A stretch of 64,000 nucleotides of DNA from Trichaptum fuscoviolaceum (Eukaryota; Basidiomycota; Agaricomycetes; Hymenochaetales; Trichaptaceae). How positions within the stretch are numbered: the stretch's first letter is position 1; each line of letters starts with the position of its first letter. The stretch spans positions 186,001 to 250,000 of the forward strand of contig CAJSYZ010000005.1 of assembly GCA_910574455.1 (NCBI GenBank), written 5' to 3'. Below are positions 3,509 to 47,833 of this stretch, in pieces. The notes under the pieces were generated by a model that worked only from the letters and a program-made list of their open reading frames with translations, searched no databases and had not been told where the DNA came from. Both the position numbers and the translations under genes were made by a program.

Positions 3509-3515
3509 GTGTTTG

Positions 3516-3770
3516 CGATCTCCACAGCTCATAAGTTGTATCGTAATCTGTCATTACAGTGTATCCGATTCATTTCCTTATTTGGACTTGTATCCGTTTC
3601 CGTGTATCCGTTTCTTCCTGTATCCGATTCATTTCTATATTTGAACTTGAAGCCAATTCCTTGTATCCGATTCTTCCCGTATTTGGCAGTTGTGGCGAGA
3701 ATAATTTCGTTTCCCTATATGGCAGTTGTATCCGTTACAACCTCCTTTAAGAATGTGTGACATGTCCTTA
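3516..3770. repeat. Left (type A) terminus and subterminal TATCCG repeats of the KDZ element
   Basis: After the terminal CGATCTCCA come the shared inverted block and then at least six copies of a TGTATCCG(A/T)TTC-like motif between 3558 and 3745. The same motif recurs at the opposite end of the element, so these are candidate transposase binding sites. Confidence 0.75.
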
Positions 3771-4172
3771 TGCATGGCGCTTAGCTCACACGCTATCATC
3801 ACGTGTTGACTTAATGTGCACACTTGCGTTGTTCACACGTACTATTAAGCACGTGCACTTTGCGCGCGACACGGAGAGTAAAGTCACGTGCCATCAGCAC
3901 TGAATCGATTTGCGCGTCCGTTGCAAGCATGCGCCGCACGCATGCACACTCAAATAAATTTGATGTTTTATTGGAAATCTCTCTCATATAATGTTTAGAC
4001 TCAGTAAAATTCAGCTCAGAAGATCATGCACAATATTTAAATTAAATTAATGAATTAACTGTAGATTAGAGGTAGACAGACAAAGACAATGAGCGAGACA
4101 ACAAATGAATGGAGACATGTGATTAATAAGTGCCGCCACAGGGATTAAGCGCCGACGCACTGCGACGACAGT
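3771..4172. other. Non-coding stretch inside the KDZ element
   Basis: Lies between the type A terminus and the 3' end of the HMG-box gene. It contains several CACGTG-like and GCGCGC-rich words around 3800-3950 and AT-rich DNA after 3950. No exon recognised. Confidence 0.35.
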
Positions 4173-6806
4173 TTAGCCTACGCAATAATCATATATTAGC
4201 ATGACATTAGAGTTGCCCGTAATAAACTCACCGATGTTGTTTGCGGCTTCACGCCAAGTTGATTCCGTCACAACCCGCGTGCTTCGTCTAGTAGCGGGCG
4301 GTGTCGGTTTAGGCACGGTCTTTTTCAGGGACTTTGCAGGCGGTTTGGTCTTCGTCTTCGTCTTCGTCGCCGCGGGCGGCTTGACTTTCGTAGCTGCATT
4401 CTTTGCAGGGCGGCCTCTATTACTAAATGTATTAAATTCAAATAGAATGCAATAAATTAAATCATACCTCTTTTTCTTCGATGATACGTCGTTCGTTGTC
4501 GATGTAAAGTCGGGTTGAGTCATGGGAGGGCCAAGGTCAAGTGTGGCCACTCGAGACGAAAGCCCAGGCGTGGCTTGCGATGTCGTCGTGCCTGTATAAG
4601 AGAATGTAAGCAAGTGATACAAGATAGAGTAATTAATAACATACCCTCAATGAAATCCGAAGAATCAATGTTCATCTGATCCACATTGTGATCCACATCC
4701 ATTGCAGAAGCAGAAGCAACCCCCGTGATGACTTGAATCCCACCAATGCTTGTGTGCGAGTGCGACTCGACGACAGCATTGTTGGCTACACTTGGGGCTG
4801 GCGGGGCCGCACTTGCGCCCGTAGACAGCACACGGACATCATGGTCTTCGGTTGCGGAAACAGGTGCCTTGTCGAGTTCTATGGGAACGGGAGCTGCGTC
4901 GGAAGCAGGTGCTGTGACTGCGACGGGGACTGCGACTGCGTCAGATGCAGGGACTGCGGAAGCGTCGGCAATAGGGACTGCGTCAGATGCAGCTGCGTCG
5001 GCAACAGGGACTGCAACTGCTGCTGCAAGCTCATCTACTAACACATATTAGAGGTGTTGCGAACAAATGAATATGTTACGAACCTTGGTATAGTTTTGCA
5101 GTTGCGTAGTTTGCCCAAGTATCACCTATGTTGTGCAGCTTGAATACACTTGAGGTGGTATACTCGGCCTCAACAGTACTGACTGCCAAACTATATGATT
5201 GTGTCAGTAGCTGAAGCGACAACGAAACAGACAGCTTACCTGTGGACAATAGGTCCAGTAGGGCCCTTCAGTGCATATTGCAAGTGAATCATCCCCTCAC
5301 CGACTTTTGATCTACCTCGGCCCAACAAGGCGACGGCAATCTTTTGCAAGACATCCGTCAGGTGAGTCTGGTTTCTATTAAGTATTGTTAGCATACAGTA
5401 TCAACGAATATGAGAGTACGTACTCGAAGATCACTTGATCAGGAACATGGTCGTCGAAAAATGCCTTGTTCTCAGCATTTATCGCTGCAGCCTCCACTTC
5501 GTACTCCTTGCGCTTTTCGTCGGACAATCTATTAAACATATCAGATCGAATACGTTGGCGCTCGCTAGCAGTCTTCGAGGGGTCGCCGATGTCCTCCATG
5601 CGGACTGCGAGTACCTCGGCAATTTCGTCTTGATAATCGACACAGAAAACGGCGAACGGTGTCGCCTTCGTGGGTTTCGGTGCTCTACCGAATAGCTCGG
5701 CCAGGACTGCTGCGTCCGCGCTGTTCACATCGATGCCCAGGGAGTCGGTCGATGTCGTGAATATGCCGCGGCGCGCAAGCTTCGTCTTCCGTCGCGCATC
5801 CGACATTGCCTGGTTCCAGAAGTAGCGGTTGAGACGCTGGCAAAAAAGTCATGTCAGTTAAAGGAGATGAATTGACGAAGACAACTCACCTGCGTCAGCT
5901 CGCTCACGTTGTACGATGGGCCCAAATCGTCTGCAAATCGAATCACAAATTCGGTCAGCGCCGTGGCAAAGAACGTGCGGCGAAGGGTATTTTTCCTGCG
6001 CGTTGGGAGCGCTAGGAACGTAGGCACCATCGACTGCAGGAAATCAACCTGCGGGCCAGTAAAGCACATCACTGGGCGCCCAGTCTGGAGAGGTCGGAGA
6101 GGGGCCGGACGCGCCTTCGGCGAGCCATGCAGAGGGGATCTAGCGCGCAAAAGCATGGTGGACAGGTGAATTGCGCGAAGACAAGAAGAAACAAAAAAGG
6201 GGGTGGGGTGGGGGGCGGAGATGGAGGACAGGCTGCTCTACTTACGACTTTTAAATATCTCGAATCCCCCAACCTTCCGTCTATCGGCCCCAGTCCCGGT
6301 AGAACCTCGTACACAGGCATACGCGCCCGCGATGGCTTCAGACGCGCCAGTCATCTGTAATTACCCAAATATTGAATTGTAGTTAAGAAGAAAAAAACCA
6401 AATGACTTAGCCAAGGATTCAAGCTCATCGGACCCCTCGCCTTCGTCACACAACATGCCAGTAAGCGCTATCACTATATTCTAGATAAATCGTGGTTGAG
6501 AGGGAAAAAATACGAATGAATTACCCTATAGTATCAAGCTCATCGGACACCTTGCCTTCGTCACCTAATCTGCCAGTAAGCGCTGCCAGTCGTCTCTCGA
6601 CTAGCTTCCCTAGCTCATCGGATTCTCTTTTTTCCACTAATTTAGCTTGCATGCGATTGCTTTAGCATTCAGGAACTAACTTGGCGTGCACAGCATTGCA
6701 TCGGAAGCATAAAGAATAGAATTGGAGTTAGTTGCGCAATGTTAGACCATTGTCATGAACAGCTTACATTTTCGCCTTCTACTTCGTCTGACATAGACGA
6801 AGACAT
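4173..6806 (-). CDS. HMG-box-like protein with AT-hook, cargo of the KDZ element
   Basis: A multi-exon gene read leftward. The exon 5836-5424 encodes a helix-rich block with an HMG-box pattern: ATPFAVFCVDYQDEIAEVL, then RIRSDMFNRLSDEKRKEYEVEA. It is preceded by a segment at about 6085-5890 (VDFLQSMVPTFLAL...FADDLGPSYNVSELTQ). Downstream exons give a GEGMIHLQYALKGPTGPIV segment, a long Ala/Val/Asp low-complexity stretch (about 5035-4800) and a Lys/Pro-rich basic tail. Removing the intron at about 4470-4422 creates KKRGRPAKN, a textbook AT-hook. Short acidic exons of the form DEG..SDEL (about 6468-6418 and 6585-6534) and an ATG at 6806 suggest the true 5' end; ATGs at 6354 or 6156 are alternatives. 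A role in DNA binding or chromatin is inferred. Exon borders at the 5' side are uncertain. Confidence 0.6.
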
Positions 6807-7300
6807 GTGGCAAGGTGGCAAGACTTAGGTCCCATTGTTTGATAGTGAAGAAAGAATCATTTATTCTTTTTTACGGAGCGAATTAGTGTCACAAAAGTAC
6901 CCGAAATTCAAATTCACTCACCCAATGGTTTCAGAATACATTCATGTACATCGTGTACCTGACAGGATAAATATTTTTAGTGTGCGGTCAAAGAGATAGA
7001 CGTAGACGACTTTACTCAATAAGGTACTGGATAGATCCCGGTGACTTCTTGCCCCGGATTTTTTAACTCTATTGCGAGTTTCGAATTACTCTTTGGCGAT
7101 CATTCATCACAACTAATTGAAAGATTTGACAGCACTGCATTAAGGGTAGTTACTAATTACAGGAAATGGTGCCGAAAATCGAGAAAAGTGGAAGAAATTT
7201 TTGGGAAAGGATCGAAGACGGCGTATTACACGAGGGAAGTACAGTAACGGAAGAGTGTAATTCATCGAGAGAAACTGAAGTGCATTGCATGACATGAATG
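6807..7300. other. Non-coding stretch inside the KDZ element
   Basis: AT-rich, with no frame resembling the neighbouring genes. It probably holds the promoter of the HMG-box gene (reading left) and the 3' end of the gene at 7301-8368. Confidence 0.4.
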
Positions 7301-8368
7301 TCAATCAAGGGTTATTGGGTGCTCAGCGCAATCACCAAGCCCGACATACGGATTAGCTTCGACGTCCGAGTCCGTCAAAGATATCATACTGTCCTCATCC
7401 GACTCGACCTTTGTACCATCGTCAACGGAGACAGCAATGGATGATGTCTCTGCCTTCTTCGTCCCTAGAGCTCCCTCCACCTTGTCCATCTCTTCAGCTG
7501 ACATAGCCGCTTCGTTGATCTCTGACATCGAGTCACCCTCCATATCTGAATCAGACTCGCCATCGTCGTCTGTATCGCTGGTGGATAGACTTTTGCTGCC
7601 TGACTCGTACACATCGAGTGCCGGATAGTAGTCGTCGTCGCTTGTCGTGATGCTGACGTCGCTGACAATGAAGTCGGAGACACCATCATCAAAGCCATCG
7701 TCTGAGCTATCTTCATCATCAGAATGGGGCGGAGAAGACAATGGGGTCAAAGTCGGAGGCTGGCGGCAAGGAGGGAAAGGCAGTGGTGATGTCGCCGCTG
7801 CGCTAGGCAACGAATCCATCAAGTCATTGAGACTTCGCAGCATTTCGGCGCTGGACACCTCCCCGTCCACCTGTTTCGGATTGCCTGCGTAAATCAATAC
7901 GAGCTTCGAAATAAGTTCGCGACGCTCTTGTTGGAGAAGCTGGAATTGAAAGGGTTTTGCCTCTGTCGCAGGCTTGGAATCACACTATACGTCGACGAAG
8001 TCAGATCTTTCGCTTCCGTCACATAGTCAATCAGAACTTACTACAAAGTATATGATACCCAAGTTGGCGAAGCGGATGGCGCCGACTGACACAATGAGGC
8101 TGTGTGAACCGTTGTCACAAGTACATTCGGCGACCTCACGTTCGAAAGAACAACGGAGTAGGTCAAGTATGGGCTCGACCGCGTCGAACGCAGCCATTGC
8201 GATCTCTATACTGCGTCCTTCGCCCGTGAAGCTCACCTCAGGCAAAAGCTGTAGCCCGCGGCGCTGAAGTCGTATAGCACCCACACGCATAGTCCAGAGA
8301 TTCAGACGAGACGGCAGCAAAAAAAAAAGGATAGAGGGAAGGGTGAGCAAAGCGATCTGTCGTGCCAT
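7301..8368 (-). CDS. Small acidic-tailed protein, tandem paralogue 1 (KDZ cargo)
   Basis: Two exons read leftward, 8368-8042 and 7984-7301, joined over a 57-nt GT-AG intron (gtaagt...tatag). Exon 1 has a C.C..G.H.LIVS.GAIRF..LGIIYFV core preceded by an FDAVEPILDLL helix. Exon 2 has FQFQLLQQERRELISKLV and a GE.SSAEMLRSLNDL segment, then a very acidic Ser/Asp tail of more than 100 residues ending at 7301. The next gene (8594-9269) has the same exon pattern and conserved landmarks, so the two are tandem duplicates. I do not recognise the family. The two cysteines plus histidine could bind metal, but this is a guess. It lies between the HMG-box gene and the Spt5-like gene, all on the same strand. 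Confidence 0.6.
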
Positions 8369-8593
8369 TTGTATTATGGCTTACCTCTATTCATTTGCCT
8401 TGTCCAGGGTCGGGCACTTGCTAGGTGACTAAAGAGTTGATTTGGGAATTTCAGAAAATAATTGAGTAGAGATCCGTAGCAACGTACCCATCGCGAAAAA
8501 TTTCCCGGGACATTAAGTATCAAGCTAGAGTAGAAATCCGAGTAAATTCAATTAGAATTGAAGTGAAAAAATAGTAAGCTAGTCTACGAACAT

Positions 8594-9269
8594 CTACTGT
8601 GCCATATCATCATCGAATTCTGATTCGGCTTCATTATAGTCAAGTGAGGTCCAACTTTCATTGTCGCTCACGTCGCCGTCGTAAGCACTTGTCTCAGCTC
8701 CGACCCTTCCGGTATTCTCCGCCATAAGAATGTTAGGGGGATTCGGCGGCATCAACTCGGGCGCGTACCGTCGAGGTTCAGGAGGACCCCCCAACAACGC
8801 AAGCAAATGGTTGAGACGCCCTAACATTTCTGCGTTCGGTAATTCCCCGGGTATCGCTGTGGGGTTCAATTGGTACAATCGAACAAGACCGGCCACAAGA
8901 CGCTGGCGTCTGACCTGCGCAAGCTGGCGAGAAAAGAGTGTTTCGTTTGATGTCAATGGCGAGTCGACCATGCACTGTATATCACGCGTTAATGTCGCAT
9001 ACAATATACTCCTATAATGTACTTACTATCATGTAAAGTAATCCCATTTGACGGAAAGTGACTTCTCCGCTCGACATGATAACGATATGGCGTCCGTTGC
9101 ACGGACAATGGGCCGATTGCGTGTAGAACGCCCTTCGAAATCGATAAAACGTGATCTCGTCCATGAGCGCGTCGAAACACGCGTATGCAATGTAATCATT
9201 CGCGCCGGGTAGGATCCGAATGGCAGGCATAACTTGCAAGACACTGCGCGTTACTGTAATGGATTCCAT
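8594..9269 (-). CDS. Small acidic-tailed protein, tandem paralogue 2 (KDZ cargo)
   Basis: Two exons, 9269-9027 and 8974-8594, with a 52-nt GT-AG intron at the same place as in the gene next door. Exon 1 begins MESITVTRSVLQVMPAI and contains CFDALMDEITF, then HCPCNGRHIVIMSSGEVTF and MGLLYMI. Exon 2 contains FSRQLAQVRRQRLVAGLVRL, GELPNAEMLGRLNHLLALL and a shorter acidic tail. The shared pattern with 7301-8368 is clear at the C-C/H segment, the Q..RR/ER..L helix and the GE...AEML motif. Function unknown. Placement inside the KDZ element suggests either an accessory protein or captured host genes that duplicated. Confidence 0.6.
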
Positions 9270-9484
9270 GTTAATGGTGAGGTGAGGAAGTGTAGAGACT
9301 AAAGGCTTACGGAGAAAGGTCGCGCCCTATACACATTTATGAGTCCCGCGTCGTATCTTGCTTATGGTGGACCCTTGTTTACCAAGACAGTCACCTATTC
9401 AAATGTCAGTGAATGTATTGAACGGCCTCTAATTTCGTAACTTACGTTGTCCTAAACAGCCTCGGCGTTCAGACCTCCACCGCA

Positions 9485-9870
9485 TTACACTGCACTGTTA
9501 CGCAAAGTCGAAACCAGAGGGTCAAGGAGGGGATCAGACGTGTCCTCAGACTGCGTCCGGGTGGCCTCAGCCGCAGGAAGGGGATGGACGCTGTCCTCAG
9601 ACTGCGTCCGGGTGGCCTCAGCCGCAGGAAGGGTTTGCTGAATGGAATAGTTTGTCAATATGAATTGCAACAGATCGCATAGTCAAGATCACTCTCCTTT
9701 CCAGTGCATATACTCTCATACATCTCTTTCTTGTACCTTATGTCGACTCGTGAACTCGCACATGAATCCATCCACTTTACGAGCATCTGCCTATGTCTTA
9801 CAACAACTCGGACATCACTGAGAGAGTTTGCATTTCTTCCTTTGCCGCAAATGTAACAGGCGGAATACAC
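9485..9870 (-). CDS. Possible small gene with a duplicated LPAAEATRTQSED segment
   Basis: Weakly supported. A leftward frame from 9870 (start MYSACYICGKGRNANSLSD, with a CxxC pair) meets a second frame ending at 9485 that holds two copies of LPAAEATRTQSED, encoded by a 53-bp direct repeat at about 9541-9635. Whether the two are joined by an intron is unclear. I do not recognise the product. Confidence 0.3.
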
Positions 9871-10359
9871 CTAGTTTGTGAAAGGTATGCATCAGTCTTT
9901 GAGTCGATCCACACAAAAGGTAGATTGACTTACTAATTTGTAAGTAGAGTTGGCGCTCTGTCATTAAGTTGATGAGTTCAATGTCTTCAGGTCACAAATG
10001 AAATTCCAGAAACAAGAGTGCATTGAGCGTATCTACAACACATACAAGAAATTCTACTAAATATTACAATAATTTACATGCATGAAGTCCAAGATACTAT
10101 GTGATCCACAATGTTCGAATAGTAGAAATGAATGGAATGAAGGAAGGAAGAGGGCAAAGTGTAACGAGGGTGGGGACTGAGACGTCACGGGTAAACGAGT
10201 GACTACGGCGGCGCATATAGACCGAACCGCGTGTGCGGCTTGAGACGCCGAGGAATGCGAGTGGATCAAGGTCCTCGTCCTTGTTTGAAGTGTCGAAACG
10301 TGCATCCAAAACGAATAGGAACGGACGTCGAGCTGCGTCGATCGAAATCCGGCATGAAG
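9871..10359. other. Non-coding stretch between cargo genes
   Basis: Contains a few splice-like signals near 9900 and C/T-rich DNA around 10100-10250, but no exon that I can defend. It includes the 3' flank of the Spt5-like gene. Confidence 0.35.
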
Positions 10360-11539
10360 TCAGTAGTTCGGGTAATAGTCGATGAACTTCAGGAGCTTGG
10401 GATCAGGGTCGAGCTCGTTCTCGGGGAGTCTCGCGATAGATCTCTCCGCGTGCTGCTCCTCGGGTACCTCGACCTTCGTCACTTCATTAACCTTGACGAA
10501 GATTGTCGGTGCTCTCCCTACGAAAGGATCCCGCTTTGCCTTGAATCCAGTGATGACGCCCTTATTGCGGACGATCTCCGTGATCTTGACTAGCTTCTTC
10601 CTGTGCTCACCACGCACTACATACGCCATGCTTTTGCACTTCAGTCCCCTGTATGTAAGGTACCTATTAGGTGTAACTATGCCTGCATATAGTTTGTCCA
10701 TTTAGGACCCTCCAAGCCCATTTTTGGGCGTGCCCATGTAACGGGGCAGTCCCACATCTGGGCGCACCCTAAATGATATAGCTTATGAATAAATATATTT
10801 TATACTATACGTAGCCTAGTTTGGTGACTCTACCTACAAGTCAGGCTATCCCTGGGAAAGTATAGTATCTACTAATACATCATAGGAAATCGAGATTGAA
10901 CATTGCAAGTGACAGGTAGGGTAAGTTCTGGGGCAGGATCCTAGACAGAGCTGCAAATGAGATCTTCCATTGAACTGCACATCCTGAGGATGAACACAGA
11001 CACTCAGCCTACACAAAATGCAAATCTAGAGATGATCTATCATCCAAGGGACATGACATCAGAGGAAGATCAAGAGCTGTATTGAAGAATCCAATTGCTA
11101 TATCAACTTCGAGACCCAAGACTTCGGCCCCATTTGTAAAACCATCTCTCATGTCTTCTCAGAACTGCAATGCTAAACAACCAACACTCTTGTTCCACTT
11201 TGTTGAAACATCCCAATCCTTTGGAAAACATAGGACCTTTGCTTATTATCCCAGTGAACACCTGCACACATCAGACAACTGATATACTTAGTATTCTGGC
11301 CATCAGCCACATTGAGCTCAAGCGGAAGATCAATGGGGTCAGACGAAGAGTGTTTGCCTAGATCCCGGTTGTCATCACCTATTCTTTGCTTCAGTTATGA
11401 GCTTTCCTTTAAGCTATAACTTCCGAAAGCATTAGAGATGAGTAGGCTGCCGTAAAGTAAGACAAACCGTGCATGCTCTTTGCAAGTGTACCATCGAGAA
11501 AGGAGATAGATTGCACCCAGATATTGCCTAGCAAGGGTA

Positions 11540-11895
11540 CCCCAGAGGTAAAGAGGGATCGCCCTTGCGAGGGTGCGCCCAGATGTAAGGGATCGCCCTT
11601 TGAGGGTACACCCAGATGAAAGGGATAGCCCTCGCGAGGGTGCGCCCAGATGGAAGGGACCGCCCTCGCGAGGGTGCGCCCGAAGTAGGCAAGGATGCGC
11701 CCTCGCGAGGGTGAGCCCAGATGAAAGGGATAGCCCTCGCGAGGGTGCGCCCAGATGGAAGGGACCGCCCTCGCGAGGGTGCGCCCGAAGTAGGCAAGGA
11801 TGCGCCCTCGCGAGGATGAGCCCAGATGAAAGGGATCGCCCTCGCGAGGGTACACCCGAGGTAAGCAAGGATGCACCCTCGCGTGGGCCCGCCCG
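11540..11895. repeat. Minisatellite with palindromic CCCTCGCGAGGG core
   Basis: About ten units of roughly 34-37 bp, each with CCCTCGCGAGGG followed by GTGCGCCC-like and GATG-AAGGGA-like words. A higher-order period of about 111 bp (three units) is visible, because the block with AGTAGGCAAGGATGC recurs twice. Open frames across it on both strands are only repeat translations. Confidence 0.85.
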
Positions 11896-12044
11896 GAGGC
11901 CTTTAATAGTTGGAATCCGCATCAGAGAAGCGAAATTTGGAGTGGTGCAGGTTTGGCAAAATTTATGGCTGATCGGGTGGACTTTAAGGCAAAGCAAAGA
12001 ATATCATATACGAAAAAAAAAAGGATACACATAGCGGCGGAGGG

Positions 12045-12730
12045 ACTAGTTTTGGGCTATGTAAATGAAAGGAGGAAAGACATCCAAAAAGCTCCTATCT
12101 TGCACCCTAAATGCATTTGCATAACCATCCACGCTAAAAATCATCCCTTCCGCTGGACCTCGATTAACAACAATCGTTGTCGCGTTGTAGTTGAACGTCC
12201 GATAAAGCTGGTAAATCAAAATCAGTTCGAAATCAGATTCACAATCATTTTGCGCTCACCCTATGATTGTCAGCGTATACCTCTTGAACCAAGTGAACAG
12301 TCGCTTGTAAGCCATCGTGCCCCCACAATTCGAGATGGAGATGGTTTCGAGGCTCTGCGCGGGATGTATGAATGGCCCCACTGTAAACCGATGGTCAGTC
12401 GATGCTCAAAGACCCGAGAAAACAAGAAAAAAAGCGCACCTGATGGACACCACCGATATCCCTGTTCCCCAAAGCTTGTAAAGCAAAAACCCTACCCCAG
12501 CCTCACAAAACGCCCGCGTATACGCGTCGTTGGCGTATGAAGTACCATCCCTCCACACGATGTGTCCAAGGTACGCGAAAGCAGGGTAAAAGATCGCTGG
12601 CTGATCCATTCGTCCCGTCGAGTGTGTCAATCCTTGCTGTTTTGGCGTAAAAGTGTCGTAAGAAACGGCCCTTGTCGAGAGATCTGCCGTGATTCCGACG
12701 TTTTGGAGTGACGAGGACTTGAAGAAGAGA
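12045..12730 (-). pseudogene. Captured multi-exon gene fragment inside the nested element
   Basis: Leftward translation gives a continuous coding-like segment: GITADLSTRAVSYDTFTP, then MDQPAIFYPAFAYLGHIVWR and FCEAGVGFLLYKLWGTGISV. A GT-AG intron (gtgcgc...tttacag) joins it to GAIHTSRAEPRNHLHLELWG and LQATVHLVQEVYAD. A second intron (gtgagc...ttaccag) joins that to LYRTFNYNATTIVVNRGPAE. Frames match across both introns, which supports a real gene piece taken up as genomic DNA. No start or proper stop is visible and I do not recognise the family. Confidence 0.5.
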
Positions 12731-13544
12731 ACGAATAGTCCAGAGAGAGCACGACGTCGTCCTTGAACGCTGAACTAAGCCGTGGGCAACACAGCATCGA
12801 TGATTCGAGATGGCGGGAGATAGAAGTTTAATGAAGAGGCCTATAATTAGTTAGCAGTCTCGTGCAGGTAACGCGTCGTTAGACGCGTACTGCGCGCACT
12901 GAAGTCGCAGATTTCGACGCCTGTTGATAAGTTCAAGTTAGAAATAAGAAATAATATTACAAGACACATGTATTATAGTACAATGTCAGAAAAAAAGGAG
13001 GGGAAGGGTAGGATCTCATGTGCAATTACACTCCGAATATCTTATAAGTAATCTCGCTTATCGAACGACTGAAATAAAAGTTTATATTAGCACGTTTCCC
13101 AACGTCGAGCTCCTATCTTAAAAAGGGGGGGCCGTAGATGTTATTGAGTAAAGAGATCTCCTTGAATGCAGGAAGGACATACGAAGATGAAGAGTAGATT
13201 CTTTCCAAAATCCGCGCCATCGAAAGACACTCGGAATGAAGTGCTTTAGCGATTCCTCGTTCTCTATTATCTTCTTAACATTGTCGATGGTGTCCTATGA
13301 CACAAGTATTGATTCACGTCTAGACAACTCGAATTTAAAGTAGGCAATTATCAACTTATGCTAACGATACTCACTTTGAGTTGACGGTCAGCATATGACT
13401 AAGCTATTAATTGCCAGACCGAAAAGGGTAAAATATTCACAACACATGAAATGCTTAAAATAATTGTCAAGGGCTCAAAAGAACTATACTTATATATAGA
13501 GTTTGTACATTGAGCCTGCTAATATATAGACATGCTCATCATAG

Positions 13545-13770
13545 GGTCTGCCTATGTACAGGGCGCGCCCATCTGTAGGGCCTGCCCATGAACAGGGCGC
13601 ACCCATCTGTAGGGCCTGCCCATGAACCGGGTGCGCCCATTGGTAGGGCCTGCCCATGAACCGGGTGCGCCCATTGGTAGGGCCTGCCCATGAACAGGGT
13701 GTGCCCATTGGTAGGGCCTGCCCATGAACAGGGTGCGCCCATTGGTAGGGCCTGCCCATGGACAGAGCAC
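13545..13770. repeat. Minisatellite of 34-bp units (GGGCCTGCCCATGAACAGGG type)
   Basis: Six to seven head-to-tail units of about 34 bp containing GGGCCTGCCCATG and GGGTGCGCCCATTGGTA. The two words match the style of the element's TIR (GGGCGTGCCCA, GGGCGCACCC). The 70-100 residue frames here are translations of the repeat. Confidence 0.85.
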
Positions 13771-15060
13771 ACTTATATGTTAGCATTAGCCTCATGACCA
13801 GGTTAGATGTAGCATTTTTGTATGTCTGCTGTAGCAGACCAGTGCTAGCCAGCCTGGATTATAACATTTGTGCCTATAGGGAGGTGCCACGGACTTCAAA
13901 ATCTTCCCTTATGTTTAAAGCCAGGATATGCAGGTACCTGATGATGCAATTTAGTAGTTAAAAGCAAAAAATCTAGTTCCTGTTACATTACTGAGACCGT
14001 AACATGTACTCACATGACTACATATTTCTTACACAGCTAGAGCTCTGCAACTGTACCATATTATATGTTTTACAGTATAGTATGATATGAGGCTATATAT
14101 ATACTGTATAAAGATTTTTGGGGCTTATATTATAGCCATAAATAAACAAACCATAACTGTATATGGTTCTTCATTTTCAGCTGTATATGGTTACAGTATA
14201 AGTTTAACTAGAATAGTGAGACTTTATGTAAAATTACTATATATATGCAGAACTATAGCTACTTATGGATGTCTTCTATAGATTCTACTTAATGAAATAC
14301 TTACTGTGGCCTTTTTGGTAATTAAACCCATATTACCATTTACAGCTCTAAAATGGCTATCCCGTACCATAAAAGAGGCTAGAATTGACTATTTACGGCC
14401 ATAAACTAATGTCTGTATGGGGTAATATACTATACAGCTGTTACTATTTAAGATACAGTGCGGAGCCCTATACACAGCTGTCAATGCATGCTAAGGATGA
14501 TAAGTTTGTCACAGTTGACCAGTGGGCAGGCAGCACAAACAAAACTCAGCACCTCTTGGCAAGAAATAACTTTTCTACAATTACAAGTAGACAGACAATC
14601 CAGCTTGTTCCATTGGACACAATAAGTATGGAAGCAAGTCTTGAACTCTCTGCTAAGACAGCAGAACAAAGAGACAGAAAAGCATATGCTTGAACTATTG
14701 ACAATTCAGACACATGAATGAGTCTATCAATCCCGCAAGCAACTACTAGAGGTGACTCAAAAGTCCACAAGCAACAAGACCATGACAGATGATATGCTTT
14801 TTTGAGAGTTCCTCTTGTTGCCAGATCTTGAAAGTTACTTTCATTTAATTATTGACAAAGCTCAGAAGCAAATATTAAGTACAGACATATTATTTGCCTT
14901 ACAGTCATTCATGGTGGGGACAAGACTACTAGTAGTAGACTGGAATGATGTCTGTAATATGTCTGTAATATACTTGGAATAGACAATATTAGCATTAATC
15001 TAACAAACGGTCTGGAAAATTTACAATTTATAGCAATTTATATACCCAAACTTTATTAGT
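13771..15060. other. AT-rich interior of the nested element
   Basis: No coding exon recognised. Frames up to 102 residues (14385-14693) lack family resemblance. Tracts rich in TATATA and TACAGT occur throughout. Confidence 0.4.
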
Positions 15061-17002
15061 ATTATATAGGGTGTGCCCAGATGTGGGACTGCCCACCTTA
15101 TGTGGGCACGCCCGGAAATGGGCTTGGAGGGTCCTAAATGGTCAAACTATATATAGGCATAGTTACACCTAATAGGTACCCTACATACAGGGGACTGAAG
15201 TGGCTTTTGATGCCCGGTCAATGGACGTCAATCTCAGTCGGACAGGCGTCGAAGTCCGCATCCTTCCTGCTGTTCTTGCAATTGAACTTCATAGGCGCAC
15301 TAAACGCGACATAGTCCGGTCCTTCCGCGGTTGACCTCATATGCGGCGCAAGCTCGGGAAGCGTCCAACATGCTTGACCCGCAACTGCACCGTTCTTGGG
15401 GGATACGACAGTCGCAAAGACCTTGTATTGCCGTAGAATGGGCAGCAAGGTGTGCGCCCAAAGCCATACCGCCGACGTATCTGGGTCTAATAGTCTTTTG
15501 TTAGTACTTCATTTCGTACGTCTTACATAGCAGGAACTCACCTGGGACTTCTTGTCTAGGTGGTGCAGGGACGACAACGTTCTCAAACGCCTCCTTCAAA
15601 GTGACCGGTGCTTCCATCTCCGTATCGCGATTCGCCAGGAAGACACTGGCAACCTCAGTCGCTTGCAGACAGGCCGGACTGGGCTCGGAGGCGTCGAGGT
15701 ACAGCATGGACTCCCTACACAAACGTCGTCAGCACAAATCATAGCGCATATATGAGACGCTCTATTGGAACTCACAGATTCACGGCATCCCTTAACTGCA
15801 CCTTATGCTTCACCTGAGTCCCGTCGAATACCACAGTCGCCGACTTCGACCCAACGCCAATCGCACGTCCAATGCGACCCTTTCCCGAGCCCTCCAGAAC
15901 ATACACGTCTTTGTCGACGAAGGATCTCACCAATTCGTCGTCATCCGCCAGTCCCCACGTGCGCGCGTACTTTCGACTTTCTGCCGTTAACTCGGCCTCG
16001 GTGCGGAGTCGACGACTCGACGGGTACTGAATGGGTGCTGCCGATCTCTCGACGAGTCCGTGATGGATGTCATAGATCTACATTGAATATTAGAACTGTA
16101 ATCTATTGCATTGGATATACAATACGTACCATTTGCCTGACATCACGGTTAGCCACCGTCAAGTATGGCCCGTCGATAGCCCCAACTGCCCCTGATCGCC
16201 CAGCCTCCGGACCCAGCCTGATCGTCACCCACTCACCCATCTCGAACAACCGTTCGAAGTCACCGGCCTCCACCTCCTCAAGAGCCTTGCCATCGGTATC
16301 CCAATCGAGCCGAACGGTGAACGTCGACGTAGACGACAATATGATTGTGCCGGTACTATTTTTTTTGGTCCGGACACGATCTCCTACTCGAGTATATGCG
16401 CCATTCGTGACGCGGATCGCGGTCTGGCTGACGCCGATATATGGAGCCACCTCCTCCGGCGAAGGTCGAAGAATAGGCTTCACTGCATGTATGCCGAATA
16501 CGTGCAGTCTCTCGAACCCGTGTTCAAATGTTCTGCCCAAAAACGTCCACTTCCCCTCGCTTTCCTCCACCAGCGCGTATTCCGGATCGTCGACTAACTG
16601 CTGACGGCGAAGACAATCCTGTACGTTTTTAGGGTCGAACGGCGTGGCCTCTGGCCGTTTCATTACATCCGCCTTCCCTTTCCCTTCAATGCGCCGCCGC
16701 TTAGCTGCACGAACTTGGTAATCGGAGAGCAAGGGCTTCGGCTTCGTAGTGAAGTCCAAGTCCAGACGAGGCACCAGCCACAACACGAGTAAGTCGTCCT
16801 TCACGATGTCGTGGTCCGCCAACGGGCGGTGATCCTCATGGGTCATCGGAGGGAGTGTAGAGTTGGCAGCCAAGGGCACGTATGCGATGTCACCCTTATA
16901 CTGGCCTGATCGCATGCGCACGAAGGAGTCGCGCTCCACGACAGGAATGGCCTGTCTACGACGCATTAGGTCCCAGACCGCTCGCCTATCTTCTTCCGGT
17001 AC

Positions 17003-18400
17003 TAGAGCATGACACGGGTGCAGGTCATCCGTGGGTACCTGCAGGTACCTGCGCTCAAATACCTGCGGTTCCAGGTGCACCTGTGCGCAGGTACCTGGTT
17101 CCCACGGTTACCTGCAGATCCAGGTTTGGATTTTTTGGGCCCAGGTACCTGACCGGGTACCTGCAGGTACCCGGTCAATCACGTGCGCTCACCTTGAGCG
17201 CGACGAACGCAACGATGTGCCATTACTTTTTACTCGACATGACCACTTCCGAGCTATCTCGAAGCTCCCTATGGAAGTTATACTTGATTTCTTGACCCCT
17301 GCCAACTTCGATGACAACCTCGAGCCCGATAATTGCCTCCCTGCCAAGTGCGCGCTCGCCAACTGGGCGGCGGACTCGACTCTGCGCTCAGAGACCGCCT
17401 GCAAGTCGTCCGTCCGCGCTGGCGACCGCAAGACAGAATAGGACCGCGAGCACGGCGAGGCCGGTGCGCGGCGAAGACCAAGCAAGAATCTCGTACTGCA
17501 GAGGTTGAATCGGTCTGCTGGTACGTCTTTTTATCGCTTTTTTCATCTCCTTTCCGTGCTGATCTCCCTTTCCATCGACTCCGCTCGTCGCCCTCGACAT
17601 GCTGCTCGTTCAGCAACCGTGACACTCACTATCGTCCACACTCATGACGCCGCCTCACAAGTGGTATGCGTCGTCAGCCAACTTCCACCGCCGCAACCCC
17701 TTGGTGCCCGTCGCCGTCGCCCAATGTCGCCCGCCTCCTCGCCCTCTCCAAGGCCATCCAGATCCGCCAAAGCGGAGGCCCATCATCGTGATTGCGTTGA
17801 CGGAGAGGGCCACCAGAGTCATCTTCACGAGGGCGATGGTGCGATTTATCGTCTTCATGGTGCCTGCAAGGCGGTCTGTCGTCGAAGCTCCTATGATCCC
17901 TATCTCTGTCTCGCCGATCATCCTTGCGCGAATCATGTCCCCTTCCCCAAATCCCCTGGCGGCACGGCACTTGACGCGCGAGGTGCCCGCGCTCGTAGCA
18001 GCGCAATCAAAAGCAAGCGCAGTCGCCGGAGATTGGTAACGGCAGCATCAGGCGCGGCAGAGGCAGTCCAGCAAAAGACAAGGTGCGCCTTCTCCCATCT
18101 TATTCTCCGAGCAGGCATCGAACGATGGCGCACCCACGCCCATCCCCACTCCTGCTACACCCCCATCTCTTGGATACATGGTATGTTCTTATTTATGTTT
18201 TTATCTTATCACTACACTACTTACTGTTAACTACCTGCGGGTCCTATCAGGTACCTGCAATACCTGCAGGTAACGGGTCCAGGTAGACCCGGATCCGTTT
18301 CCCACGGTTCCGGGTCGGATCCAGGTATCAGTTTTTGTGCGCAGGTACCTGTGCTTCACGGGTCCGGGTGCACCTGCAGGTGCACCCGTGTCATGCTCTA
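17003..18400. mobile_element. hAT-type DNA transposon (non-autonomous) inserted in the NGN domain
   Basis: The termini are 20-bp perfect inverted repeats, TAGAGCATGACACGGGTGCA, flanked by an 8-bp target duplication TCCGGTAC at 16995-17002 and 18401-18408. An 8-bp TSD and a TIR of the form YARNG are hallmarks of the hAT superfamily. Subterminal zones at 17036-17175 and 18235-18390 are packed with CAGGTACCTG-type palindromes, which in hAT elements usually act as transposase sites. Removing the element and one TSD rejoins KLVP with EEDRR in the Spt5-like frame. The interior shows no transposase; it contains a frame with KLPMEVILDFLTP (F-box-like start) near 17265 and an Arg/Asp-rich stretch on the minus strand. 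Confidence 0.85.
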
Positions 18401-19386
18401 TCCGGTACCAACTTCATTTTGCCGGTCATAATCCCTACGATGCCAGCACTAGCGCATGCCTTCTCGACGTCGATGCGTGTATGTGCGTACGCATATATGC
18501 GTCCGCTCAGACCGGGAATAGAGAAGGCACGCGCGCCAGATGGAAGGCAGGTGTTGACCCTCTCTACATACGCCTTCTCTTGATGATACTGTCAATGTAT
18601 TAGTTTATTTCACTCCGATAAAGTAGACTCACTTACGAAGGTCGGTAATATCCACATGGGCTTTAACCCATCGTATTCTTCCCTCATGCGCTCGTCGACG
18701 ACCCTCGTATTGCCCAGAAATTCGTAGGAGACGGACTGAACACCGGGCACTTGGCGTCCAGCCCTCTTGTTCGCTTGGACAGACGCCAAGGAATCACCTC
18801 AAGCCCGCTCCCGGAAACGGCATGCGATAGCGTCCGCAGCCTCGTCCTGCTCCAGATCGGCGGCCTGGTCGCGCAGGAACTGCGCTATGTCGAAAGAGGA
18901 GGCAGAGGTACGCTGCTCCGGCTCGTCCACTAGGAAATCTATGCGCATACAATGAGTGTATGTTCTAACATTTCTGTTGCCTTTACTCACCATCTTCACC
19001 ATCCTCTTCGTCTTCCTCGTCGTCCCTCCCATCTTCGATGGCTGCGTCGTCAATGAAGACACGAGCCGCGTCCCTTACATTGCGCGACCTCATCTGTTTC
19101 ATGCCCATTATTAGTTACTTCTTCATCATTACTCTCTTCTCATTTCGTCTCACTTTAATAACTTTTAATCGTTAAAAGAATGCGAACGTCACTCGCTTTT
19201 TTTTTCTTTCAAATAATTAGTTATAATTTACAATCAAGTCCAAGATCAATTTGCTATCTAAATAATGAAAGTGGGGACAGAGTACTATCTAAATAATGAA
19301 AGTGGGGACGACCGAGACGACGTCGTACGCAAAGGGAAGATAATGGGACGGGTAGAAAGAAAATTTCCCACAATACGCTGCAAAGG

Positions 19387-19550
19387 GTCTTGAAGTGTTA
19401 CTTTTTTGGGGGTATTTCGGGTAGGCTTGTTGGCGTCGAGGGCGGAATACGCCCTCGGTAGTTCGGTAGCACAACGTCCTTACCGAGTTACCGAGCCTCG
19501 ACGCCAAAAAGCCTACCCGAAATACCCCCAAAAAAGTAACACTTCAAGAC
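19387..19550. promoter_or_regulatory. Large palindrome between the divergent Spt5-like and transposase genes (copy 1)
   Basis: Arms of about 55 bp start GTCTTGAAGTGTTACTTTTT and end with its complement, with only one or two mismatches. The centre holds smaller nested palindromes (GAGGGCGgaataCGCCCTC and a CGGTAGTTCGGTA pair). It lies about 280 bp from the Spt5-like ATG and 270 bp from the transposase ATG. The same structure is at 63013-63176, and a decayed form lies at 47834-47925. No target duplication flanks it, so it looks built in. Confidence 0.75.
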
Positions 19551-19820
19551 TGGCGGAAGCCAAAGGGCCGAATTTCCTTCTTGCTCTCGTTCCTGTACGA
19601 GCCCTACGACTCCCCTCCCCTCCCCGACTCCTATGGCTTGATCGCCTTGACGGCGTTGTTCCTTTTGTCTGGGTTTGAAGTGACTTAGAATTAGATAGAA
19701 ATTAATGTACAATAATTGCCAGTCTAATAAACTTGTTCCGTTCTTTGGCAGACTTGAAATTTCGTAGAGTATTCTGTGTAATTTGTTCTGAAACAAAAGG
19801 AAAAAGAGTCGGAAATCTCA

Positions 19821-22800
19821 GTGACCGAGACGACAAGAAGAGCAGTTTGGTATTGGGAAACAGTGATGGACGACAAAAAAAAGAGGTCGAGCCTCAGAGA
19901 CCGGTTTCGAGACTCTGCGAGCAACGGCAGCAACGACAGGCCTTCCAGAACGCGTCTGCGAATCCTTCAGGACGCCAAAACTCCAGGCAGCCCATTTTTC
20001 GTGTCGCAACAGCAACATATCGTCCCAACTCTACTGCGACAACAAAATACATCCACAGTATTCGACGCGAACGCGGACACGACGACGACGACGACGACCC
20101 ACGAGTTCTTACGAACTGATGCAGCCAAGAGACAACGACTCAATAGTGAAGAGGAGGAGGAGGAAGATGAGGAGTTGGACAATGTGGACACTGCTGAGGC
20201 AGAGGAGGAGCGACGTGACCAGGTAAGCCACTCTGCGAACGTACTGCAATCTACAAAACTGACAATTCTTAGACAGCACAATATCATCTGCTGCAGTTTC
20301 TGGCCATGCAGCGGGACATTCAAGATGCTATCCTGCATTATGAACGTCCTCCTGACATTGGTATCGCGTGTTCATGCAATAGAGGCGGGCGTCGGCTATT
20401 CCGATGCCATGACTGTCCTCAGCACCCGCCTGTATGCGCGCCCTGCCTATTGGAGACTCATCCTTATGAGCCGCTTCACTGGGGCGAGGTGTGGACAGGT
20501 CAATGCTTCCGCAAGGTGGACCTGAGTACCATAGGGAAGCATATTTTCCTCGGGCATGGCGGTCTTCCTTGTCCGGTCGCTGCGGGCAATGCTGCGGGCA
20601 AGAAGTTGACTGCGATAGATACGAATGGGGTGCATGAAATTGTGGTCATGTTTTGCGAATGCTCTGACAATATGGGAGTCAACTCTCATGTCCTGCAGCT
20701 CATCCGAGGTCGGTTGTTCCCGTACACGACTGTGAATCCCGAGACCGTGGTCACTTTCCGGTGCTTGAAGGATTTTCATGTCCATACGAACGCATCGCGC
20801 AAGTCCGCTCACGACTTCATGAAGGCGGTATTGCGCATGACATCGGAGGACACGAGAATCAAGTATTCGGTGAGAATTTCATTTGTATTTGTATTTGTGC
20901 GCAAGTTGATTCTGACTTCACTGCATGTAGCACCTTTCGCAGCATTTCATTCGGCTTATGCGCCTATGGCGATTCCTGGCGGCGGAAAGGGAAAGCGGGC
21001 AGTTTATGGGCCTGGACGATCTGATGACTTGCCGACCCCGCGGCTCGTTCGCAGACGTTTGTTTAGCATGTCCAGTGCCTAACGTGAACATGGCTGACGC
21101 GCAGTCGTCGAAATGGCCAATATCCAATGTGTCAGATCGCCTTTATGCGAGGCTGCGAGGTCCGGATTCTCAAAAGTAAGTAATTAGATTCTGATATATA
21201 CTATGTACTAACTTATGCGACAGACATCTGAGAACAATTTTCCTCGCAATGGACGGAAACTTCAAGCTAATCAATTTGGAGAAAAAGAACAACTTGAACG
21301 ACCCTTCACTGTGGAACGGTCGAGGGTATTTTAGAGCGCGTCAACCCATGGAAGAACATATGAAGAAGCATTACAATATTAAAATTGAAGTGCGTCGTCC
21401 ACTAATTCTAACTCTACATATACTGATGTCTTTTCGTACACAGAAAGGGAAATGTCGAAAGTTTGCTGCCATCGAGAATTGGAATTCTCTGAAATATAAG
21501 GGCCAGGTAGTGACGGGGGTCATGATGGTATTTTGTCGACACGGACTCGTGCGTCCTGATAGCGCAACGAACCTCGTTCGAGGGGAAAAGTGAGTGGTCC
21601 AATACCCGTCACGTTCATTGTAGACTAATTGCTTCGAAGATTTGTGTGCGGTGACTATAGCTTATGCGGCGCTCTTCAAAATACGGATGACATTGAGGAA
21701 ATATGTCTTGCATATGACATTATGTGCATGTACATCGTGAATCTCCGTCAGAGGTGGGCTATCCAATTCCCGGAGCGACCTCTACTTTCCTTGATGGACG
21801 TCATTGGCAAAATGCATGGACAGACCCATGTCGACACGTGCCAGTATTGCCACAGTTTATATTACACTCGCGGGGTCGGAAGAACGGATGGCGAAGAGGC
21901 GGAGAGATTTTGGGCGGAGGCCAATCAAGTTGCGGGGAGCACAAAGCAAATGAATCCGGGGCATCGATGCGACACGTTGGACGATGTCATTAATGACTGG
22001 AATAAGACGAAGCTTCTACAACACGGTATGTTATCGGTTACTATTTCAAGTACACTTTACTAACTGTTCTACACAAAGCTATGATGGTAGAGAAGAAGTA
22101 CCCTCGCACTCGAAAGCGAGCAGAAAACCTTGGATTGAAGTTCGATGCAACGGATGCAACACTTAGGACTCGTTACACGGATAAGGTGGTCGATGAATGG
22201 GTGAAACGGGGTACCGAATGGAATCGGACTGCGTCTGGTGAAGTAGACAGCCCCTTCAAATCGCAGAACGCAGGTACGCGTACTACTGACTATTATATGA
22301 CCATTAACTAATAAACATGAAGCCCTCTCTCTCGAAGACCAGTTAAACGCAATGACGATCTCTTTGGTAGATCAAAGTCCGGATGGTTTTGATGAAGAGG
22401 CCAGTCGTATGCCACTTATAATTGCGGCAGGCATAAAGCTACAACAAAGACAGTAAGTTTCTTGTATTCTCATTTGTGCTTCATACTCAATCTTGATTGC
22501 GTAGACGCATTATGAAAGGAAATGTGACCTTTTTGTCTGACGACATTCCGGTATCAGCCTCTTCATTACGCCACGACATCTTGAAATGGCGAGCGCACTT
22601 ATATGATATCTGTCCTGGTCTTCAATCTTATCTCGACGAAGAGGAAGTAGCAGATGCTGTCGAAGACATCCGATTACGCCTGCCTTCGGACTTCAAGACA
22701 GAGGACCGCCTCAAGTACGCGCTTGAACATCACGCCGCGACAGAACTGAAGCTCAGACAGGGCGAGGCCTTCGATGTCATAGGGAACTTGCGCACGGCCC

Positions 22801-23587
22801 TTAGGCTTATGGCGCAGCATAACCATAAGGCGAAGAAGCATGGTGGCATTCGATCTACGAAGACTCGTACTGGGAAGGCTTACTCGGAGGCGCGGAAAAT
22901 GAAGCTGTTCTGGAATAGCGAGTACGACACAGTCTATAGTGCCATGCTATGTCTGGGTCTGCAGTCTTCGGCTGACACGTTTCGACAACTCACCGAGGAA
23001 GATATGTATCGACCAGATAATTTGGAGCCTGCAGAATTTTGTGCGAAGGAAATTGGGTGGATTTGGACCGTGTCTGGAAGCGGGGGGACTTCTTCGAATT
23101 CCTCGATTCTTCAATGGGAGAAAGAAGGTGAGAAGGTTTTATTAGTCGTATAGATTACAAGCCTTTCTAATAACCCCTGTAGACGATCGTGTGCAATGGT
23201 ATCGACAATGGGCTGCACGCGATCGATGGAGAGAGGAGGTTGACCTGTTGGAAGAGGAACTTAAGAGACTTGTGCGAGGGTTCTGTGCCTTCGCCAGGGC
23301 TTGGAATACGTTGTCAGAAACGGCAGCCCTGGATGGGAATCCCGGCAGAGCATCTTTTGCGGCCAGCAAGGAAATCTCGTACAGGATTGCATGCTATGAT
23401 GCGTGGGCCATCCATGAAGGTCTTGGACTGACGTGGAACGCCAATGAGACACCAGAGGTTAAAGAACCGCAGGTAAGTTTTTTTTTCGTGTCTAAACTTC
23501 AATATTTAATCCGCTTCTTTGCAGAATATGTATCGTATACTTGCATCGAACACTCAAGCTGCTGCAGATACATCTACCGCGGCTTGA
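19821..23587 (+). CDS. KDZ transposase with CxC2 cysteine cluster (copy 1, apparently intact)
   Basis: Eleven exons with short GT-AG introns encode about 1,080 residues. Order: an acidic head with a poly-Glu run; a CxC2 cluster from about 20375 (CSCNRGGRRLFRCHDCPQ, CAPC, then HWGEVWTGQCF); the KDZ catalytic part with AMDGNFKL (about 21250), a YDIMCMY motif (about 21713) and HGQTHVDTCQYC followed by the acidic DGEEAERFW motif (about 21885). These carry the expected D, D and E catalytic residues of this RNase-H-fold family. A C-terminal helical part ends with NTQAAADTSTAA at a TGA, 23585-23587. The ATG at 19821 or the in-frame ATG 45 bases later may be used. No stop or frameshift was seen. The protein should cut and paste the element by its type A and B ends. 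Confidence 0.85.
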
Positions 23588-23820
23588 GTGTCCGATGCAC
23601 CTGGTATCCGATGCATCTAGCATATGATTCCGTTGGTATCCGTTGCACCTGGTATCCATTGCACCTGGTATCCGATTCACTTGGTATCTGTTGCACCTGG
23701 TATCCGATTCACGTGGTATACGATGCACCTGGATTCACTTGGTATACGATGCACCTGGTATACGATTCACCTGGTATCCGATTCACTTGGTATACGATGC
23801 ACTTGGTATCGAACTCATCT
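23588..23820. repeat. Array of 16-bp GGTATCCGATTCACTT-type repeats behind the transposase
   Basis: About fourteen degenerate 16-bp units (GGTAT-C/A-CGAT-G/T-CACCT) start right after the stop codon. They share the TATCCGATTC word with the element termini. The stop codon itself lies in a hairpin: CACTCAAGC at about 23554 pairs with GCTTGAGTG at 23582. Confidence 0.8.
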
Positions 23821-24358
23821 CATGGTCAATGATGAGCTTCGACATCACTTGTAAGTATCTAGTCTTATTCTTTTCCAAGTCCATATGCTTGTTTCCTTAC
23901 AAGTGTCCGATACAAGTTAGATACCCGCTGCAAGTCGAGCCTGTCCTCTGTCTCATATTTTCGTGAGTCCCTGGTCTGTATCTTACTGTACTATTACTGA
24001 ATCAAGTACGACTTATAGTTATCTTTATGCAATAACTCTCTATTTGGACATATAACGTTCGTGCCTCTAATGACATTGTTGTTAACTTAAGCTAATAGTA
24101 ATACTTTTTACCTTTTACTTTTATGATCTACTTTACGACACGACTCTGTCTCTTTTGTCTTATAATTCTCACGACTACTGATGTATAACGCAATCCAATT
24201 CGTTCTGTAAATACTAAACTATGACATAACCTGACATAATAAACCTCTTTATATGGAAATGCATCGTATGTGTGAATCGGATACAAGTCCAAATAAGGAA
24301 ATGAATCGGATACACTGTAATGACAGATTACGATACAACTTATGAGCTGAGGTGCCTG
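23821..24358. repeat. Right (type B) terminal region of KDZ copy 1
   Basis: Non-coding DNA running to the inverted terminal block. It ends with AGGTGCCTG at 24350-24358, followed by TSD GTGTTTG at 24359-24365. Nearly identical to 57585-58125 read in reverse. Confidence 0.75.
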
Positions 24359-24365
24359 GTGTTTG

Positions 24366-47767: not shown

Positions 47768-47833
47768 TATGCTACAACGTAGGAGAACGAGGGAGAAGAA
47801 GAACTTCGTGATCTGTCTTCAGAAGGCCTTAAA

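Follow-up and report, generated by a model that had tools for sequence, protein, structure and literature searches.

The window analysed here, a stretch of 64,000 nucleotides of Trichaptum fuscoviolaceum DNA, contains a complete KDZ element (copy 1), which occupies exactly 3516–24358 on the plus strand and is bounded by terminal inverted repeats (TIRs) of about 80 bp (3516–3600 on the side of an HMG-like gene and 24274–24358 on the transposase side, both plus) and by the 7-bp target-site duplication GTGTTTG (3509–3515 and 24359–24365), both ends placed by the preliminary description being exact. The transposase-side end is identical in 12 fetched loci, the flanking DNA of which differs in each, and the length of copy 1 minus its two nested inserts is 14.9 kb. 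Target duplications of 7 bp, GTGTTTG in copy 1 and AACCTGC in a small element, are as in Kyakuja (PMC12730594); however, the same source gives Kyakuja of Laccaria 5'-CA..TG-3' termini without TIRs, whereas copy 1 has the termini CG..TG and carries TIRs some 80 bp long, and the element is thus filed under KDZ only.

The spliced transposase gene (19866–23587, plus strand; start and end approximate, set by eye, with support from Pfam and a genome search) contains a CxC2 cluster (about 20522–20845; PF18803, E 3.3e-27) and a KDZ core in separate exons (about 21237–22003; PF18758, E 6.7e-15 and 4.7e-32), which confirms the CxC2-KDZ type assigned earlier. A palindrome with two 55-bp arms and a 54-bp spacer (19387–19550) separates it from a divergent Spt5-like gene (10360–19108, minus strand); this palindrome occurs in KDZ families A, B and C and was not found when looked for in families D and E. 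The six exons of the Spt5-like gene are interrupted by two nested TIR inserts, at 17003–18400 (8-bp duplication TCCGGTAC) and 10637–15202 (7-bp duplication GCTTTTG), and by two in-frame stops, so that the gene is not functional and cannot be expressed in its present form. The element carries a third cargo gene (4180–6100, minus strand, limits approximate; exon 5381–5836), which is HMG-box-like with a Pfam HMG match under the cut-off (E 0.056), and which accompanies family-A copies and also families B, C and D. Two short ORF groups (7304–9326, minus strand) resemble each other by eye, and a Pfam search of them gave no match below E 0.1.

The second copy is cut by the window end (57585–64000, 99% identical) and repeats the arrangement claimed for both copies, with the KDZ transposase on the minus strand, a palindrome (63013–63176) and the first exons of the divergent Spt5-like gene on the plus strand (63456–64000, start set by symmetry with copy 1). 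The main Spt5-like exon of this copy is situated shortly past the window end, at C5:250168, and an end search, in which 40 of 76 candidates were scored, places the whole copy at C5:243585-268423. The gene is thus seen in both copies, as had been stated, but the one in copy 1 is broken.

The preliminary description had left the Spt5 likeness of the divergent gene to be settled by a profile search, and this search supports homology: a profile of five diverged transposon-borne versions, with host Spt5 excluded, matched solved Spt5 chains with E 2.7e-31 over positions 24–314 of 328. A PDB search with A1 was left out of the evidence, as A1 contains host Spt5. The single window sequence gave Pfam matches under the cut-off (Spt5_N, E 0.003; KOW, 0.012) and a marginal match to an Spt5 structure chain (E 0.0023), while in the relative L036 KOW passes the Pfam cut-off (2.2e-9) and NGN (PF03439, 5.8e-4) falls just below it, with 20.2 of 22.4 bits. 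The profile match runs NGN, KOW1, KOW2-3 in the order of Spt5, with NGN as its weakest part, and is preceded by an acidic head (21 D/E and 7 K/R within the first 60 residues), the same order as in host Spt5; the acidic head, NGN-like and KOW motifs noticed at the outset are thereby borne out. As the Pfam NGN search of the genome matched host Spt5 alone, a Pfam scan by itself would wrongly refute the finding. Judged from its sequence, the product is a true Spt5 relative, with a predicted acidic head, NGN, KOW1 and KOW2-3, followed by further KOW-like parts and by a C-terminal module.

When folded from its single sequence, the window exon reached a mean pLDDT of 30, too low to be informative, and P0002, a relative of family B, folded with nine sequences, reached 42.5. 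With the P0002 model, Foldseek listed 23 matches in the PDB with E ≤ 0.001, of which the best had 3.9e-11. Judged by entry titles, these are mostly complexes of Pol II or domains of Spt5; two concern cap-snatching by influenza polymerase, and in both the matched chain is presumably Spt5. As the TM-scores by query length are 0.14–0.24 and the amino-acid term helps the matches, the model lends weak support to the homology. Protein searches for relatives gave 3, 9 and 19 matches, known as sequences without genomic context; among the relatives, P0003 (65% to the window exon and 67% to P0002) fits none of the families found by the Spt5-like searches of this genome. No relative turned up when viral contigs were scanned with one exon.

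The glutamate by which Spt5 binds Spt4 is present in host Spt5 and absent from all 12 aligned diverged transposon versions, which have Y, Y, V, Q, L, S, G, S, Q, C, S and I at this position (Gln in two of the 12); in the profile alignment residue 338 of an Spt5 chain, a Glu, falls in the same column, and P0009, a relative known from its protein sequence alone, keeps the Glu. The missing Glu could also be a sign that the usual Spt5 function is lost. Spt4 itself gave one match in the genome, away from every Spt5-like locus. Host Spt5 has eight C-terminal motifs of TPAW/TPNPY type and the 834 residues of element A have none. KDZ-E shares the C-terminal module firmly with two Plavaka versions and one of Helitron (98.7%); the case is moderate for KDZ-D (66%) and weak for KDZ-B/C (19%), and the module found no match in host Spt5 over the 130-residue stretch compared.

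These features bear on a reading in which the protein is a decoy that replaces host Spt5 on the polymerase or binds its partners, thereby blocking co-transcriptional silencing instead of aiding elongation. Its nearest model is plant SPT5L/KTF1, a silencing-pathway Spt5 paralogue, with the sign reversed, and RDM3 (8hyj_W), which we take to be SPT5L/KTF1, is the second match of the single sequence (E 0.0034) and a profile match at 9.6e-14; an incomplete competitor would also be expected to lack the Spt4-contact Glu and, as element A does, the C-terminal repeats. However, canonical Spt5 chains are far stronger profile matches than RDM3, a GW/WG array of AGO-hook kind is absent (one WG in the 834 residues of element A), and the sharing of the C-terminal module by several families suggests an added activity. 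The decoy reading is considered unlikely.

Two genome searches gave 57 and 72 Spt5-like matches, which merge into 73 loci; removal of host Spt5 and of seven second fragments inside Helitrons leaves 65. A transposon gene lies within 20 kb of 61 of these (22 KDZ, 15 Plavaka and 24 Helitron), and no partner was found for C2:352330, C9:1645684, C4:2149147 and C4:3229441, the last with a helicase fragment 27 kb off. The Spt5-like gene is thus cargo of DNA transposons, as had been proposed for KDZ elements, but no KDZ speciality, as 43 of the 65 loci lie elsewhere, 39 by Plavaka or Helitron genes and four by none found. No Spt5-like locus lies within 100 kb of any of the three TET/JBP matches in the genome.

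The pairing with a KDZ transposase first noticed in the window recurs within this genome at 22 loci, and in 20 the two genes are divergent. The KDZ carriers form five families whose Spt5-like exons are down to 22% identical. From 115 KDZ matches 61 KDZ loci were obtained, of which 39 lack an Spt5-like match out to 10 kb; transposition is therefore not always in need of the gene. Orientation goes with the carrier: most KDZ-linked genes are divergent, and all 15 Plavaka-linked genes lie downstream on the same strand. The Plavaka counts rest on a fragment search with linkage by coordinates, which gave 18 loci, three of them (C6:642576, C12:1451968 and C3:31761) with no Spt5-like match near; one link spans 16 kb. 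A Pfam search, in which 123 of 834 candidates were scored, identified the Plavaka transposase (PF18759, 4.6e-17 and 1.7e-19) beside the Spt5-like gene at two loci. The Helitron Rep domain (Helitron_like_N, PF14214) occurs at 27 loci, 23 of which have a same-strand Spt5-like gene within 20 kb; these make up the 24 Helitron links together with C1:1204682, linked via a helicase only. In 18 of the 23 Rep-linked copies the gene is downstream of the RepHel helicase, and at one fetched locus a PIF1 helicase (PF05970, 2.9e-24) stands beside it.

The presence of the same gene in elements as chemically different as KDZ, Plavaka and Helitron would fit a job outside catalysis, such as that of a targeting factor that would link the transposition machinery with elongating polymerase and thereby direct insertion or excision to transcribed, open DNA. 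The HMG-like, possibly DNA-binding protein alongside in KDZ families A–D points the same way, but no transposase fusion was noticed among the loci read, and we give this explanation little credence.

Purifying selection is seen in three comparisons between diverged families (dN/dS 0.16–0.30), namely KDZ A versus B (0.283/0.956 and 0.230/1.42) and Helitron L042 versus L043 (0.227/1.36), and the Spt5-like gene is thus kept by selection in its KDZ and Helitron versions. Among 13 assessed family-A copies, two have an open frame, and in 11 the coding frame is interrupted by stops, gaps or insertions. The broken window copy, these 11 decayed copies and the failure to find the palindrome in KDZ D/E were weighed against the best reading given below; with the window copy broken and most assessed copies decayed, present-day activity of the element gene is a supposition. 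Such decay, together with the 39 KDZ loci that have no Spt5-like match, is what would be expected of a passenger captured once and of no benefit to the element, an explanation disfavoured as improbable by the dN/dS values and by the presence of the gene beside 23 of the 27 Helitron Rep loci and in three classes. That the loci are host Spt5 duplicates with transposons inserted nearby by chance would account for the homology to Spt5 and nothing beyond, and is extremely improbable, as the gene sits between element ends bearing a target duplication, the 12 fetched loci share one end with different flanks, and 62 of 72 places have a carrier gene no more than 10 kb away against 2.6 expected (maximum 9 in 1000 draws, an estimate that used guessed lengths for contigs C4 and C10); for KDZ family A this reading is refuted.

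In a tree of 13 rows, KDZ families A, B and C group firmly (100/99). The grouping of Plavaka with Helitron is weak (80/87), one row of Plavaka falls next to two of Helitron (80/83), and the long branches of KDZ-D, KDZ-E and the host are left unplaced. Transfer of the gene between transposon classes appears likely from these relationships, though unproven on account of the unplaced long branches.

The reading we moderately favour is that the protein is an element-encoded specialised elongation factor, like RfaH and the plasmid NusG paralogues, which would promote transcription of the element under silencing. The factor may bind the clamp of host RNA polymerase II via NGN and KOW, as Spt5 does, although the retained NGN/KOW similarity is not in itself proof of polymerase binding; it would act without Spt4 and be free of the C-terminal repeats by which the host controls Spt5, and could make the long, intron-rich and probably silenced genes of the element processively transcribed, with the palindrome between the divergent genes of KDZ families A–C as a possible starting point. 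Such a function would agree with the purifying selection and the Spt5 anatomy. A broader proposal, that three unrelated eukaryotic transposon classes share a dedicated, Spt4-independent counterpart of RfaH that moved between them and overrides host silencing, is tentative and rated slightly less likely than not. The findings suggest that mobile elements may arrive in a hostile genome with a transcription helper of their own.

Compared with host Spt5, the large subunit of DSIF, the element protein has the same acidic head, NGN, KOW1 and KOW2-3, but differs in the loss of the Spt4-contact Glu, in the lack of TPAW-type repeats in element A and in a C-terminal module unmatched in the 130-residue host stretch; natural Spt5 relatives of this kind would be useful for probing the purpose of Spt4 and of the C-terminal repeats. 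Plant SPT5L/KTF1 (RDM3) likewise exists as an additional Spt5 paralogue next to the general factor, and its NGN + KOW1 stretch aligns with the element protein; unlike the latter, it is not known to be transposon-borne and bears an AGO-hook repeat region. In the Helitrons of Pleurotus ostreatus, the 'captured' genes capA-capF sit downstream of the RepHel helicase, the same place as 18 of the 23 Rep-linked Spt5-like copies, a likeness of position; for capA, capA2, capB and capC no conserved domain is reported (PMC4289320). TET/JBP genes ride fungal KDZ, Plavaka, Helitron and other DNA transposons, likewise as one epigenetic or transcriptional accessory gene common to unrelated classes, for which an anti-silencing role is proposed (Kojima 2025, PMC12730594). 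The cargo there is a dioxygenase and here an elongation factor, and 'Spt5', 'KOW' and 'elongation factor' are absent from the main text of that paper; TET/JBP-type accessory genes act on DNA marks, while the target here would be the polymerase itself, a step at which no transposon–host conflict was found described in the limited literature searched. The NusG/Spt5-family paralogues RfaH and plasmid-borne NusG-SP are tied to long or otherwise silenced operons, and NusG has Gln in place of the Spt4-binding Glu (PMC7593976). The element protein differs from them in having several KOW domains and the domain order of eukaryotic Spt5, and its function is proposed with no ops-like site shown; if the proposal is true, the same solution would be found in bacteria, with NusG paralogues on plasmids, and in fungi.

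The Spt5 match of a single element-borne sequence was borderline, and an NGN search across the genome returned host Spt5 as its sole match. The decisive profile was built from five transposon versions of the Spt5-like gene (one each for KDZ element families A, D and E, plus a pair from Plavaka) with host Spt5 omitted; against the PDB it matched twelve long Spt5 chains (E 1.2e-22 to 2.7e-31), KOW1 and KOW2-KOW3 fragments and the plant Spt5 paralogue RDM3 (E 9.6e-14), the next-ranked matches being chains of ribosomal uL24, a known KOW family, at E 0.013. The homology to Spt5 claimed in the preliminary description is thus borne out by a host-free profile. The precomputed Pfam family PF23042 (KOW1_SPT5) was present in 3/3, 8/9 and 18/19 of the proteins found by three protein-set searches.

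The window covers C5:186001-250000; the presence of KDZ, Plavaka and Helitron elements, together with the style of the introns, points to a probable basidiomycete. The first KDZ element copy (window 3516-24358), flanked on both sides by GTGTTTG repeats, encodes on the plus strand a KDZ transposase that includes a CxC2 cluster (Pfam), opposite which lies, in divergent arrangement, the six-exon Spt5-like gene, and farther left, on the minus strand, an HMG-box-like gene whose Pfam assignment is under the cut-off (E 0.056). An HMG-like exon search of the genome gave 22 matches, found by every Spt5-like locus of family A (15 in all, of which 14 have the match within 19 kb and one at 44 kb, one locus yielding two fragments) and in families B (C1:50098 and C1:440772), C (C1:742176 and C3:827576) and D (C11:3863550; 27% identity, E 3.3e-4), with an extra match at C7:5811112, where a KDZ match lies 29 kb away and no Spt5-like match is nearby; none of the 22 lies beside family E. 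As HMG-like matches accompany families A-D, the three-gene cassette (transposase, Spt5-like, HMG-like) appears to be an old one. The contig C12 copy of the Spt5-like gene splices to an 834-aa protein through GT-AG introns. Among the 15 family-A genes compared (14 loci plus the first window copy), two disrupted or cut loci (L014 and L027) were left out of the frame count; the open frame and all splice sites are kept in two of the other 13 (L015 and L017), and 11 have stops, gaps or insertions, the first window copy bearing two stops and two inserts.

The transposase-side end falls at an identical base in 12 fetched loci, including the second window copy (57585 onward; L018), the outside DNA being different each time. 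Across the genome (12 contigs, 59 Mb), the element-end search gave at least 52 matches, with 40 of 76 candidates scored, and pairing these by position yielded at least 15 copies with both ends, which range in length from 14.9 to 60.7 kb; six of the 15 measure 14.9-15.4 kb, and the first window copy minus its two inserts would measure 14.9 kb. These nested TIR inserts occupy window 17003-18400 (ends TAGAGCATGACACGGGTGCA, 8-bp duplication), fragments of whose repeat are present in L018 and L027, and 10637-15202 (4.6 kb, ends CACTTCAGTCCCCTG, 7-bp duplication), which holds tandem repeats of 105-nt and 34-nt spacing. Close to the transposase-side end, at window 23578-23833 and 58094-58365, a 16-nt motif (..CACCTGGTATCCGATT..) is repeated in tandem and may provide transposase binding sites. 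A non-autonomous 2.5-kb relative with the same termini, a 7-bp target duplication (AACCTGC) and no KDZ match lies at window 47074-49601. Elsewhere in the window, diverged repeated ORFs (25023-28025, 37672-38811, 44728-46050 and 50606-52342), with stretches 72-83% identical and no Pfam match at E 0.001, perhaps form a local gene family, and a Sel1/TPR-repeat protein (41849-43585; Sel1 E 3.6e-20) is partly duplicated some 8.7 kb upstream (33493-33920).

Two Spt5-like queries located 72 places in the genome besides host Spt5, of which 65 loci remain once second fragments inside Helitrons are dropped, and these were compared with KDZ, Plavaka, Helitron helicase and Rep (Helitron_like_N) matches. 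A carrier gene lies within 20 kb of 61/65 loci (22 KDZ, 15 Plavaka and 24 Helitron), and within 10 kb of 62/72 places, against 2.6 expected and a maximum of 9 in 1000 random draws; carrier identity was established by Pfam on fetched DNA at two Plavaka loci and one Helitron locus, and by search coordinates for the rest. The divergent arrangement with the KDZ transposase, noted earlier in the window, recurs at 20 of the 22 KDZ-linked loci in this genome, two being tandem. The Plavaka transposase is upstream on the same strand in 15/15, and the Helitron Rep shares the strand in 23 cases; in 18 of these the Spt5-like gene lies downstream of Rep, and in the other 5 upstream. The gene is carried at 22/61 KDZ loci and 23/27 Helitron Rep loci. 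At seven Helitron loci, among them C1:1262870, C4:3360474 and C8:1344262, the opposite strand holds an additional Spt5-like fragment some 6-8 kb away from the helicase; one such fragment sits inside a 3466-aa open frame (C1:1217255).

In KDZ families A, B and C the divergent genes are separated by the same inverted repeat, whose core reads GGGGGTATTTCGGG(T/G)AGGC; it was looked for but not found in D and E. Its arms are nearly alike within each family despite differing between families, which argues that the palindrome is maintained; our guess is a two-way promoter or recruitment site.

Comparing the Spt5-like genes of KDZ families A and B gave a dN/dS of 0.30 for one segment and 0.16 for another; two Helitron versions gave 0.17, and dS was saturated in a fourth comparison. 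In an alignment of 12 transposon versions and host Spt5, the column of Spt5-chain residue 338, located via profile alignment, has glutamate in the host alone; we take this residue to be the Spt4-contact glutamate, yeast E338. It is retained in P0009, a metagenome relative with NGN and KOW domains. Spt4 has one match in the genome, away from the Spt5-like-bearing elements. TPAW-type repeats are present in host Spt5 and absent from the family-A protein. The C-terminal module, with no Pfam match up to E 0.01 and no clear PDB match (best E 0.081), links KDZ-E firmly with Plavaka and Helitron versions, while its match in KDZ-B, C and D is weaker.

Our literature search did not find Spt5 joined with KDZ and transposon; an earlier mention may exist in a paper on KDZ from 2014 or in a fungal transposon survey from 2017. 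The publication closest in subject, which deals with TET/JBP transposons, has no Spt5 in its main text, nor do the main texts of PMC12062965, PMC9674265, PMC12810828, PMC10799480, PMC7473861 and PMC4289320. TET/JBP matches in this genome number three (C3:5436268, C8:4246 and C9:1760512), one lying 4 kb from a contig end. Literature co-mentioning Helitron and Spt5 seems to concern plants. In Pleurotus Helitrons, PMC4289320 describes genes that follow the helicase and have no assigned function; they are possibly, but not necessarily, equivalent to the Spt5-like genes here.

With NGN and KOW parts under selection, the Spt4 contact and regulatory tail lost and a C-terminal module added, the Spt5-like protein resembles an elongation factor of a specialised kind. 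It is established that NGN attaches to the clamp of the polymerase and that KOW domains contact RNA, DNA and partners. The elements carry long spliced genes and, being repeats, are likely targets of silencing; the simplest reading is a putative role in which the protein would drive transcription of its elements' genes. In bacteria, specialised NusG-type paralogues act against silencing that would shut down foreign operons, and certain plasmids bear such a paralogue of their own (PMC7593976).
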